Source: a virus
Strand: one strand, 5' to 3'
Virus record (IMG/VR): IMGVR_UViG_3300028197_000085
Span: 1 to 32,467 of that record
Length of the DNA stretch: 32,467 bases
Part shown: piece after piece, positions 8,631-27,144 of the stretch
Layout of the letters: each line of letters starts with the position of its first letter
Numbering within the stretch: the stretch's first letter is position 1
Notes under the pieces: generated by a model
The model's input: only the letters and a program-made list of their open reading frames with translations
What the model was told of the DNA's origin: nothing
Database searches by the model: none
Position numbers and translations under genes: made by a program

Positions 8631-10286
8631 TTACTGAATCTTATGTAATCCATCTACATAAACCTTACCGTAGAATTCACCTCTTAACATCTTCTTCGCG
8701 TAACGTGTCATAACACCTTTACGTGGAGTGAAGTTTTTAGGGTCATATACTAAAGGAGTCATAATTAATGGAATGTATGGAGAATAAACTGCTCCAGTTT
8801 CAAGGAATTGTGTTCCTCTATAACCCATTAATATTACGTTCTCTTTCATATAAGGATTCTTATATACTTGGAATCTACTGTTCAATGAACCAACTTTAGT
8901 TACACCGAATGCAAATTGAGCATCACCGTTATCCGCTGTTGAAGCGTATCCTGGGATAGATTCAATAATTGTTGCAACATCTGGAGATACTACTAAGAAA
9001 TTAGCCCCACCTCTTAATGTTTTTTGATGAATCTTGTTAGATACACCTGCAACTACTGTTCCTAATGTTTGAAACCATGCACCTTGATTGAATGCAGAAG
9101 CACCATACTCAGCAGTTCCCATATTAGCGAATCCTGAACCATTCCATACTCTACCAGTCGTTGCTGACCAGTAACCTTTAGATTTAGCTCCTGAGATTAA
9201 CATATCTAAAATTTCAAAATCAATTTCTTGTGAAATGTATTCTGATAACATAGATGTTAATTCAGCTTCAGCATCGATACTATGATAAGCGTTCAAATCT
9301 TGTGCGAATTCTGGAGTCCATTGTGCTTTTAACTTTCTAGTCTTAGCAACAATTGGTAAACTCTTCATTTCAACATTCAATTCTGGAATATCGATATCAA
9401 CTTCTGGGTTTCCACTTAGTGAAGTTCCAGCTGCTTCAAAATCACCTCTTGAAGTATCAGATGGAGCTTTGTGATATTTTACTACCAACTCATCTGTGTT
9501 GTTTGATGCTAAGAATCCTGAAGTTTTTGCGATAAACACAATATCAGTTCCAGCTTCTACAGTAAACTGTGGATACTGGTCTGTAATTTCAGAACCTTCT
9601 AATCTAAATCCTCTAATACCTTTGTCATCATAGTTTGCTATAGATGCTTTTGGTACTGCGACTTTTACAATCGTAGGTACTGCAGATGTTAAAGCTGCGT
9701 GATTAGATGATGAAAACTGAGTATCATAATTGATATCAGCAGCTGCTACAGATGATGTTACGAAGTTATTCGCTCCAGCTGCACCTAATGTTTGAGTTGC
9801 AGATGTTTTATCATTTATAGAATATCCAAATCTACCTGCACCATACAAACCACCTGATGGGTCTGAAGTAGTATCAGTTACACCGAATACTGAATCAGCT
9901 TGTGAATCTTTACCAGAACCGGTAGCGAAACCTGCTTGACCTGTACCATATTTGAAATCTAGATAAAATACTAGTCCAGATGGTAAGTTCATTGGTTGTA
10001 CACTAACGAAATCTTTTGCTACGATTTCACTAAAAATTCTTCTTACTAATGGTAGAGCTACACCAGCCCACTCTTCTGAATTTGCAGAAGTACCAGTAGA
10101 AGAAGCTTCTTTTACTAATTGTCTTGCTTGGTTTTCTAAAAGGGTAGCAACGCCAGCTTTTTCAACTTCGTTGTTAATTCCTTCTAAAAGACCGGTCTTT
10201 TCCCACTTACCAGCTAAAGCTCTTGTAGCTTCAGATAGTCTTGCGGTGTGAGAAGAACCTTCATTTAAAATGTTTTTTAAATCCAT
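8631..10286 (-). CDS. 23: Major capsid protein, T4 gp23-like
   Basis: The 551-aa product matches the T4 gp23 family (521 aa in T4). The central segment TRKLKAQWTPEFAQDL followed by DAEAELTSMLSEYI, and the C-terminal RYAKKMLRGEFYGKVYVDG (residues 528-546), are family hallmarks. The ATG at 10286 has an AGGAG ribosome site, 27 bases after the scaffold gene stop. Gp23 forms the hexamers of the head shell, and in T4 its first 65 residues are removed by the gp21 protease. Here the N-terminus MDLKNILNEG has the [LI]-x-E pattern seen on other genes of the cluster, and LLEGINNE near residues 33-40 and ATLLENQA near 47-54 are further possible cut sites. The gene is followed by a strong terminator, consistent with high-level late expression with the scaffold. 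Confidence 0.95.
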   Translation of the reverse strand: MDLKNILNEGSSHTARLSEATRALAGKWEKTGLLEGINNEVEKAGVATLLENQARQLVKEASSTGTSANSEEWAGVALPLVRRIFSEIVAKDFVSVQPMNLPSGLVFYLDFKYGTGQAGFATGSGKDSQADSVFGVTDTTSDPSGGLYGAGRFGYSINDKTSATQTLGAAGANNFVTSSVAAADINYDTQFSSSNHAALTSAVPTIVKVAVPKASIANYDDKGIRGFRLEGSEITDQYPQFTVEAGTDIVFIAKTSGFLASNNTDELVVKYHKAPSDTSRGDFEAAGTSLSGNPEVDIDIPELNVEMKSLPIVAKTRKLKAQWTPEFAQDLNAYHSIDAEAELTSMLSEYISQEIDFEILDMLISGAKSKGYWSATTGRVWNGSGFANMGTAEYGASAFNQGAWFQTLGTVVAGVSNKIHQKTLRGGANFLVVSPDVATIIESIPGYASTADNGDAQFAFGVTKVGSLNSRFQVYKNPYMKENVILMGYRGTQFLETGAVYSPYIPLIMTPLVYDPKNFTPRKGVMTRYAKKMLRGEFYGKVYVDGLHKIQ

Positions 10287-10313
10287 TTTTTTTCTCCTAT
10301 TAATCTTAATTTA

Positions 10314-11345
10314 TTATTTTAAACCAGCTAGTTTTTTCCATCTAGCGGCCATTTCGTTGCCCTCAGAAATTATTTTCTTTGGTGCGGAACTTTTTGTTGC
10401 TTTAGAAGCATAACCTTCTTTTACAACTGTTCTTTTCTTTTTAGCGACGTTTAAGTTTTCTGCTAAAGTTGAAAATACTAATTTCACTTCTCTTACTGAT
10501 GATGTTCTATCGAAGTTTTCAAGAACTTTAACCTTTTGGTTTTCGTTCAAATCAAAAGTTCTGAATAGTTTGTTAGTATAAAGTAGTTTAGCGTTCAACA
10601 GATTTACTTCATTGATAGTTTTTTGTAAACTTTCAATTGTTAAATATGCTTCTTCTAATTCTTCTTCTTTATCTTCACCTTCTTCTTCACCTTCGTTAAC
10701 TTCTTCTTCATCTTCAGATACTTCATCTTCCTCAGAATCTTCCATTTCTTTCAAAGTTCTAATAACTTCGTCTAAATCGATTTCTTCTTCGTCGTCTAAA
10801 TCATCTTCTTCAGCTACCGCTTCTTCAGAATCATCTTCTTCGACTTCTTCTTCTTCGTGGTAGTTTTCTTCAGTTTCTTCAGAATCTTCTAGTTCTGCTT
10901 CTAATTCAGCGATTACAGACTCTAAGTCTAAATCATCTTCATCTTCTTCAGGAACTTCTTCTTCTGATTCGTAAGTTTCCTCAGTTGGTTCTTCAGTTTC
11001 TTCAACTTCTTCAGTTTCTTCAACTTCTTCAGTTTCTTCTACTTCTTCACCTTCTTCTGTAGCTTCTTCTTCTTCGTACTCTTCACCTTCTTCTTCAATC
11101 GTTTCATCCTCTTCTGAATGAACTTCTGAATCTAAATCGGTTTCAACAGCAACTGCTGTTTCATCTTCAAGTTCATCTTCAAGTTCTTCATCTTCAGCTT
11201 CTTCAGCTAATTTTGCAGAAATCATTGATTGTAGTTTTGGGGTGAACGCTTCCTCTAATGCTAGTTTAGCGTTTGCTAGAGCGGTTTCTTTAACAGCTTT
11301 AGCATCAGCGATAGCTTCAGATAACAAATCTTTTCTATTTGCCAT
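10314..11345 (-). CDS. 22: Prohead core scaffold protein, T4 gp22-like, very acidic
   Basis: The 343-aa product lies directly upstream of the capsid gene, the gp22 position in T4. An AGGAG ribosome site precedes the ATG. The N-terminus MANRKDLLSEA has a targeting/cleavage-like LSE. Residues about 48-233 are almost all Glu/Asp with VEETEE repeated three times at 102-119. A helical C-terminal domain follows (residues 234-300: LTIESLQKTINEVNLLNAKL, then NENQKVKVLENFDR), and the end is basic (AARWKKLAGLK). Such scaffolds guide shell assembly and are degraded by the gp21 protease. The acidic tract is longer than I expect for T4 gp22. A shadow reading frame on the plus strand encodes poly-Ser and is not a gene. 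Family assignment rests on position, the C-terminal helical pattern and composition. Confidence 0.85.
   Translation of the reverse strand: MANRKDLLSEAIADAKAVKETALANAKLALEEAFTPKLQSMISAKLAEEAEDEELEDELEDETAVAVETDLDSEVHSEEDETIEEEGEEYEEEEATEEGEEVEETEEVEETEEVEETEEPTEETYESEEEVPEEDEDDLDLESVIAELEAELEDSEETEENYHEEEEVEEDDSEEAVAEEDDLDDEEEIDLDEVIRTLKEMEDSEEDEVSEDEEEVNEGEEEGEDKEEELEEAYLTIESLQKTINEVNLLNAKLLYTNKLFRTFDLNENQKVKVLENFDRTSSVREVKLVFSTLAENLNVAKKKRTVVKEGYASKATKSSAPKKIISEGNEMAARWKKLAGLK
10989..11042 (-). repeat. Three 18-base repeats encoding VEETEE
   Basis: Three tandem 18-base units lie within the acidic tract of the scaffold gene and encode residues 102-119. The surrounding GAA/GAG-rich DNA looks prone to slippage, so repeat number may differ between relatives. 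Confidence 0.8.
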
Positions 11346-11401
11346 AATTGTTCTCCTATATTGTTGTTTGGAAATAAGATTATTAGAATCTTAATAGATA
11401 T

Positions 11402-11409
11402 TATTTATA
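11402..11409 (-). promoter_or_regulatory. TATAAATA, T4-late-promoter-like box upstream of scaffold/capsid unit
   Basis: The minus strand reads TATAAATA, the T4 late -10 consensus, 57 bases before the scaffold ATG at 11345. Among the longer gaps this is the only one with this box in the coding orientation and without ATATTTAT. In T4 the box is read by sigma-like gp55 with the sliding clamp. Assigned by sequence and position only. Confidence 0.6.
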
Positions 11410-11476
11410 AAAATAAATTTAACCATCTATTGGGAGACGGTATTTTTTCTCTACAATAAGTATGTAGTATAATTGA

Positions 11477-11495
11477 AAACACTTAATAAGTGTTT
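11477..11495 (-). terminator. Hairpin just after bS21-like gene, possible weak terminator
   Basis: A perfect 8-bp stem (AAACACTT / AAGTGTTT) with a three-base loop starts one base after the bS21-like stop. The following tract (TCAATTAT on the minus strand) is only moderately T-rich, so it may be a weak terminator or an mRNA 3'-end stabiliser. Confidence 0.55.
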
Positions 11496-11496
11496 A

Positions 11497-11754
11497 CTAA
11501 TAATTTTCAAGCTGGTTTCTTCTCCACTCAGCTCGGATGGCATCTTTCATTTTCTTTCTTTTGATAACTGAAGGTTTAAGGAACTCTTTACGAGCTTTAA
11601 ATTCTTCTAACTTATCACTATCTTTTATTTTTCTTTTAAATGTTTTGAGTGCCAACTCAATGTTACCATTCACAACTTTAACTGCTAATGAGTTACCTGG
11701 TATATCCATATCTTGTTTATTAATTCTTTTGTAATTCTTTGGTTTTTCTATCAT
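11497..11754 (-). CDS. rpsU: Ribosomal protein bS21 homologue
   Basis: This 85-aa protein resembles bacterial bS21: NSLAVKVVNGNIELALKTFK (residues 21-40), RKIKDSDKLEEFKARKEFLK (41-60) and PSVIKRKKMKDAIRAEWRRN (61-80) line up with the bS21 order of V..G..E.AL..FKR, then R..F.KP...RK, then a basic helix. bS21 binds the small subunit near the 3' end of 16S rRNA, where the anti-SD sequence lies, and phage-encoded copies are known from marine and huge phages. The frame extends upstream to 11787, but those 11 codons lie in a terminator hairpin, so I place the start at the ATG at 11754. That ATG has no SD sequence (TATAATAATATAC precedes it), unlike most genes here. Product presumably acts on host ribosomes late in infection; inferred. 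Confidence 0.8.
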   Translation of the reverse strand: MIEKPKNYKRINKQDMDIPGNSLAVKVVNGNIELALKTFKRKIKDSDKLEEFKARKEFLKPSVIKRKKMKDAIRAEWRRNQLENY

Positions 11755-11768
11755 GTATATTATTATAT

Positions 11769-11805
11769 AAAAAAATACACCTATCACATCATTGTGTAGG
11801 TGTAT
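11769..11805 (-). terminator. Strong terminator-like hairpin upstream of bS21-like gene
   Basis: On the minus strand ATACACCTA/TAGGTGTAT form a 9-bp stem extended by an inner CACA/TGTG stem past a one-base bulge. Seven or more T residues follow. It lies after the 105-aa gene, ends the long assembly transcript and finishes only about 15 bases before the bS21-like ATG. One base before its upstream arm is an ATATTTAT motif. Confidence 0.88.
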
Positions 11806-11813
11806 ATAAATAT
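11806..11813 (-). promoter_or_regulatory. ATATTTAT intergenic motif, copy 6, abutting a terminator hairpin
   Basis: The motif is directly followed by the hairpin at 11769-11805. If it is a promoter, the transcript would begin in or just before the hairpin, which would make the hairpin a leader structure of the bS21-like mRNA. Confidence 0.45.
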
Positions 11814-11832: not shown

Positions 11833-12150
11833 TTAAAAATCGTTATCAGATGCTAGTTTATATTTTTTTAATGCCGATTGAAGTTCTTTTAAAATAAGAC
11901 TATCAATTAAAATAGATTTACCAGATGCATTATCAGTAACATAAAGAGTTGGAGTAAATGTAAATTGTTTACTAGAACTTTTCATTTTAGATAATTTTTT
12001 AACATAATCAGTTAATTCAATTATTCTTTCTTTTGTAAATGGTACTTCACCATAATAATATAATCCTGTCCTAGAATCGTAATTACCTTCGTTTACTGAT
12101 TTGTTTATTGCCTTTTTTGCAATTTCAAAGTATGAGATTTCTTTTTTCAT
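11833..12150 (-). CDS. Hypothetical protein of capsid-assembly cluster, 105 aa
   Basis: The ATG at 12150 lies 3 bases after the preceding stop and has a GTGGAGAA ribosome site inside the upstream gene, so translation is probably coupled. The basic N-terminal helix (MKKEISYFEIAKKAINKSVNEG) contains SVNEG, a variant of the NESVVNE motif found in the protease, 991-aa and 667-aa proteins, encoded by nearly the same bases (12088-12102). The rest has a small alpha/beta look (YYYGEVPFTKERIIELTDYV). There is no membrane span or known catalytic motif. It is the last gene before the strong terminator. Its place and the shared motif suggest a head-internal or assembly protein; no family recognised. Confidence 0.65.
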   Translation of the reverse strand: MKKEISYFEIAKKAINKSVNEGNYDSRTGLYYYGEVPFTKERIIELTDYVKKLSKMKSSSKQFTFTPTLYVTDNASGKSILIDSLILKELQSALKKYKLASDNDF

Positions 12151-27125: not shown

Positions 27126-27129
27126 AGTA

Positions 27130-27137
27130 ATAAATAT
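27130..27137 (-). promoter_or_regulatory. ATATTTAT intergenic motif, copy 11
   Basis: It lies in a 19-base gap, 7 bases after the fibre stop and only 4 bases before the ATG at 27125 (ATATTTATTACTATG). If it is a promoter, the mRNA would be leaderless or start inside the coding region, so here another role (translation or processing) must be considered. Confidence 0.4.
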
Positions 27138-27144
27138 AGTTTAA

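Follow-up and report, generated by a model that had tools for sequence, protein, structure and literature searches.

The window analysed here, the IMG/VR virus record IMGVR_UViG_3300028197_000085 at its full length of 32,467 bases, carries on its minus strand a T4-like head module (terminase, gp20, gp21, bS21, gp22-like scaffold, gp23 and PhoH genes, with bS21 between gp21 and gp22/gp23) that includes a gene for the ribosomal protein bS21. In our judgement the chances are about even that this gene is expressed late, from an mRNA with a hairpin leader and no Shine-Dalgarno (SD) sequence, and that the phage bS21 makes the ribosomal anti-SD usable, favouring the SD-bearing late mRNAs of the phage. 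In Flavobacterium johnsoniae, bS21 hides the anti-SD, and mutation or loss of bS21 frees SD-dependent initiation (PMC9976891). The bS21 of Pelagibacter phage HTVC008M enters E. coli ribosomes (Mizuno et al. 2019, PMC6375957), and earlier papers already describe phage bS21 with its N-terminal extension and late expression, as well as the idea of a takeover (PMC6375957, PMC7162821, PMC9723584).

SD use and bS21 in the gp23 family

The product of the window gene matches PF01165 with 41.5 bits against a curated cut-off of 27 (residues 25-75; E 1e-10). The 17 nt upstream of the gene have an anti-SD pairing energy of +2.6 kcal/mol, the weakest among the 21 window genes called. Family match and pairing energy together confirm what a sequence-only reading of this DNA had claimed, a bS21 homologue that starts at an ATG without an SD. 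The same reading placed SD sites on most neighbouring genes, which is right as a majority: an SD core is present before 12 of the 20 other window genes (60%), with AGGAG and a pairing energy of -7.3 before each of gp22 and gp23. Among 43 distinct loci that encode bS21, 29, including those of the window clade, have no SD core before the gene. Such an mRNA would be translatable by unmodified host ribosomes. The rpsU autoregulation of F. johnsoniae (McNutt et al. 2023, PMC9976891) is alike in that bS21 and access to the anti-SD decide which mRNAs are translated; however, it involves a strong SD before the bS21 gene, and the phage gene of the window clade has none (+2.6 kcal/mol in the window). 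By extension from PMC9976891, abundant bS21 would shut off host rpsU but not the phage gene.

Two gp23-based scans yielded 94 loci, all reaching 4.5 kb or more upstream of gp23 so that the bS21 site is covered; gene starts come from a simple longest-open-reading-frame caller. The SD fraction of a locus is 0.00-0.27 where bS21 is absent and 0.30-0.80 where it is present, save for two exceptions. An SD precedes gp23 in 39 of the 43 distinct loci with bS21 and in 0 of 40 without, and a peak of the SD motif at -10 to -13 before gp23 occurs in bS21-bearing loci only. SD cores precede 183 of 510 genes in the window and five bS21-bearing relatives, compared with 6 of 166 in Flavobacterium phage immuto, which has no bS21; genome-wide SD fractions of large contigs are 0.21-0.54 with bS21 and 0.04-0.09 without it. 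Whole-contig searches found no bS21 in the tested bS21-lacking contigs, which reach 163 kb; the complete genome of immuto has none either. Loci that appeared to be SD-rich without bS21 were dismissed, as their contigs end upstream of gp23 or bS21 is in fact present. The comparative data thus fit well with the earlier idea that a phage bS21 favours the SD-bearing mRNAs of its own phage; the mechanism that we infer is given below.

Early and late genes of the window clade differ in SD use

ATATTTAT is the commonest 8-mer in the noncoding DNA that precedes genes of the window and of five large relatives, where it has 98 coding-strand and 4 reverse-strand copies. Its usual distance to the start codon is 28-34 nt, and its strand bias is repeated in 12 further large relatives, both with and without bS21. 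Other genes are marked by a second element of Bacteroidota type, TTTG-N17-21-TAnnTTTG, with 11 forward copies and 1 reverse copy against a shuffle mean of 0.3. From its distribution, ATATTTAT appears to be a phage-wide late-promoter-like element. The late element of T4 is TATAAATA; both are short, AT-only elements of T4-like phages, and they differ in that the window phage has ATATTTAT on the coding strand. The TTTG-N17-21-TAnnTTTG promoters, together with the cultured relative immuto, point to Bacteroidota as hosts of the window phage.

SDs precede 45 of 88 genes with the late motif compared with 4 of 52 genes with early promoters (window and contigs G001-G005). Because some early promoters reach right up to the ATG, where an SD would not fit, operon-internal genes were compared too. 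These have SDs in 53/131 late versus 17/123 early cases in G001-G003, in 269/680 versus 61/281 across all contigs with bS21, and in 22/261 versus 8/129 in contigs without it. For the window clade, the early/late contrast speaks against a simple effect of the host. In G056, which represents the Mel-JY01-type lineage, early genes bear SDs too.

Two side observations concern upstream elements. A NadR-like gene has the late motif just 4 nt before its ATG (ATATTTATTACTATG; window 27126-27144), an arrangement conserved in the L136 and L140 homologues, which suggests that its late mRNA is leaderless. Contig G052 (L309-L317) carries the noncoding repeat CCTCAAGGTG about 18 times upstream of open reading frames, on the coding strand; no other contig tested has this repeat among its top words.

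The bS21 protein and its N-terminal extension

The window bS21 has an N-terminal extension ahead of the bS21 core. Its clade has Arg where F. johnsoniae has Tyr54, and thus does not share the aromatic residue 54 of the anti-SD-blocking Bacteroidota type. In a post hoc comparison of the bS21 proteins of L037-L386, in which one cluster mixes lineages and clusters share descent, lineages with an extension of at least 18 amino acids are SD-rich in 22 of 22 clusters and unextended lineages are mostly SD-poor (6 of 9 clusters). The two exceptions within the gp23 family, L180 and LR756508, are both without the extension; nine unextended or unscored bS21 loci of the family are nonetheless SD-rich.

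Several observations weigh against a causal role of bS21 in SD use. On the gp23 tree the bS21 state changes only twice, both times in agreement with SD use, so phylogenetic inheritance could explain the link; because two events cannot reach significance, the small p-values of the locus counts overstate the evidence. L180 (SD fraction 0.07) and LR756508 (0.00) have bS21 and yet are SD-poor. In other phage families bS21 occurs without SDs in L093-L098, L104-L110 and three huge phages, and a universal rule by which bS21 implies SDs is rejected, as it fails outside the gp23 family. The bS21 gene of the window clade itself bears the late motif, so the protein is not clearly produced ahead of the genes it should help, and in the Mel-JY01-type and L200-type lineages bS21 itself is preceded by an SD. 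Residue 54 does not follow SD use: all three types, Tyr, Arg and Lys, are rich in SDs, and the idea that losing Tyr54 brought about SD use is rejected.

The link could also reflect the hosts, with bS21-bearing phages infecting SD-using hosts, phages without bS21 infecting SD-less Bacteroidota, and bS21 itself not being causal. The scarcity of state changes on the tree, the presence of both bS21 and SDs in Pelagibacter phage Mosig, the lack of Bacteroidota-type promoters in the L200-type contig G012 and the SD-bearing early genes of G056 are all in keeping with this explanation, which we nevertheless consider rather unlikely. An SD-using host would not explain the mostly SD-less early genes of the window clade; TTTG-N-TAnnTTTG promoters of Bacteroidota type occur in the bS21-bearing G001, G053 and G056; and phages with and without bS21 have the late motif in common, as they do the early element TTCGTATATT (bS21-bearing G001-G003 and bS21-lacking G034).

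A conserved hairpin, the probable leader of the bS21 mRNA

In the order of transcription, the gap before bS21 holds ATATTTAT, a hairpin, seven T, TATAAT and the ATG (Table 1); the motif, terminator-like hairpin and TATAAT of the sequence-only reading are all there. The 106-nt hairpin stretch has a folding energy of -17.7, compared with -10.9 on average for its shuffled versions (z -2.9). Of the 24 IMG/VR stretches that contain the exact 18-mer GATATTTATATACACCTA, which spans motif and stem, 20 have it directly upstream of bS21, and a protein-based scan blind to upstream DNA recovered the motif-hairpin block before bS21 across the whole close clade, with differing upstream genes. In about 40 contigs (folded members) the stem starts directly at the end of the motif, and the block is present in one copy per contig (contigs up to 169 kb), only before bS21. 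Compensatory changes affect 7 of 10 stem pairs, with 97% of cells pairing and 0 of 500 shuffles as high, in an alignment made to fit the structure, one row of which is a spurious antisense sequence; an independent MAFFT alignment has compensatory changes in 4 of 10 pairs. In L157/L158 the stem sequence is wholly different, and the spacing of the half-sites varies among relatives.

Because the motif precedes the hairpin, the stem covaries, the structure occurs only at bS21 and the U-run is lost in some members, the hairpin is probably the 5' leader hairpin of bS21 and not the terminator of the upstream gene. It has the conserved, structured form and the linkage to its gene that mark autogenous ribosomal-protein leaders, Rfam has no family that matches it, and we regard it as a candidate new cis-regulatory RNA. 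Between the two options that had been offered for the hairpin, these data favour a structured or regulated leader over a terminator followed by a near-leaderless mRNA. The latter, with TATAAT as promoter, is rejected, since TATAAT is not conserved (it is absent, for example, from L040/L041) and the upstream ATATTTAT is.

A reading of the hairpin as an ordinary intrinsic terminator that ends the upstream structural operon, with the bS21 promoter overlapping or following it, is unlikely. The window does have a G+C-containing stem followed by seven T, and in several relatives the hairpin comes right after the stop codon of the upstream gene; however, the U-run is not conserved with the stem (lost in L154/L155, weak in L066-L070). 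The terminator comes first, as would be expected, in 23 of 25 other pairs of terminator and motif, the two remaining odd pairs being weak or ambiguous, whereas the four bS21 leaders scored have the motif first and the hairpin second. The hairpin also stays with bS21 despite swaps of the upstream gene, and no conserved promoter lies between hairpin and ATG.

A promoter-proximal attenuator, in which most transcripts begun at the motif would end at the U-run except when a factor, perhaps bS21 itself or a late antiterminator, permits read-through, would account for the order of promoter-like motif, terminator-like hairpin and gene, and for a single copy per genome, only before bS21. We consider it distinctly unlikely, given the absent or weak U-run in the relatives just named; an alternative antiterminator fold was not identified. 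A DNA operator formed by the inverted repeat is rejected, since the varying half-site spacing, the covariation and the different L157/L158 stem fit an RNA structure better, and an SD mimic in the 3' arm (AGGUG) is too far from the ATG and is lost in L062 and L066.

In a Tyr54-type clade (L172, L177, L188, L193, L198, L202) the SD-less bS21 gene apparently lies, as judged by eye, behind a Bacteroidota-type promoter (TTTG, about 20 nt, TATATTA) and not behind the late motif.

Proposed mechanism

We propose that the bS21 mRNA would start at the late-type promoter ATATTTAT, at the base of the hairpin, which would then form the 5' end of a short SD-less leader and most likely protects the mRNA 5' end or sets the amount of bS21. 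Having no SD, this mRNA could be translated by host ribosomes with a hidden anti-SD. Phage bS21 would replace host bS21 on 30S subunits, the anti-SD would become usable, and the SD-bearing late phage mRNAs (gp22, gp23 and others) would be favoured over SD-less host mRNAs. A more specific form of this proposal, which we hold tentatively and rate a little short of an even chance, is that, late in infection, extended phage bS21 enables SD-blind Bacteroidota ribosomes to read SDs. The SDs of late genes would then work only after this conversion, early genes and the bS21 gene would have none, and loss of bS21 would be followed by loss of SDs.

The locus and its neighbours

Homologues of gp23, gp20 and gp21 stand in T4 order (Pfam PF07068, PF07230 and PF03420), which places the window among the T4-like, immuto-related phages. 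The window gp23 is 55% identical to that of immuto and 60% identical to that of Mel-JY01, a phage recorded from Microcystis that is thus nearer by gp23 than immuto. Mel-JY01 (PP395634.1, L009) clusters with contigs that bear Bacteroidota-type promoters (G056), and its recorded cyanobacterial host may deserve checking. A scan of genome contigs found no bacterial relatives. The leader of gp22 (window 11346-11496, between bS21 and gp22) has several hairpins before a strong SD; besides the one listed in Table 1, another (AAGATT..AATCTT) is invariant.

Table 1. Coordinates of genes and upstream elements around bS21 in the window.
Feature	Position	Strand	Remarks
gp23 major capsid gene	8631..10286	-	PF07068; AGGAG SD at 10294-10298, pairing energy -7.3
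gp22-like acidic scaffold gene	10314..11345	-	position before gp23; AGGAG SD at 11353-11357
gp22 leader hairpin	11422..11441	-	loop CCAAT; compensatory changes in 6/7 pairs
bS21 gene	11497..11754	-	85 amino acids, ATG at 11754; PF01165 E 1e-10; alignment with PDB 7jil
TATAAT-like segment	11762..11767	-	7 nt from ATG; not conserved, probably not functional
U-run after hairpin	11769..11775	-	kept in most relatives; missing from L154/L155 and weak in L066-L070
bS21 leader hairpin	11775..11805	-	arms 11797-11805 and 11775-11783; stem starts right after motif
ATATTTAT late-promoter-like motif	11806..11813	-	commonest 8-mer upstream of genes; strand bias
Gene upstream of bS21 leader	11833..12150	-	105 amino acids, no family; other genes in its place in relatives

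Relation to known phage bS21 systems

The bS21-encoding Bacteroidetes phages of Chen et al. 2022 (PMC9723584) resemble the window phage in having bS21 beside terminase, portal, prohead protease and capsid genes, in their predicted Bacteroidetes hosts and in the proposed takeover. In those phages, however, bS21 lies on the opposite strand and has an aromatic residue at 54, whereas in the window it is co-directional with Arg at 54; the late-motif hairpin leader and the SD-bearing late genes belong to the window. The words promoter, terminator, hairpin and leader are absent from the text of PMC9723584. HTVC008M likewise has a phage bS21 but belongs to another host group, a link with SD use was not studied, and purified ribosomes carrying its bS21 were nearly inactive in E. 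coli extract (PMC6375957). The rpS21 proteins of huge phages (Al-Shayeb et al. 2020, PMC7162821) are alike in their N-terminal extensions and in the proposed favouring of phage mRNAs, but SD use was compared there with rpS1, not rpS21; the three huge phages with unextended bS21 are SD-poor in the present analysis. The literature searched, which left subscription papers and preprints outside, holds no report of the motif-hairpin leader or of bS21 co-occurring with SD-bearing late genes.

No viral ribosomal protein is reported more often than phage bS21, and its role has been in question since 2019. The SD pattern described here sharpens the loose idea of a takeover into a specific prediction, namely that hosts which suppress SD reading regain it through phage bS21. 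If true, this would amount to a specialised ribosome of viral making whose footprint can be seen in the genome.
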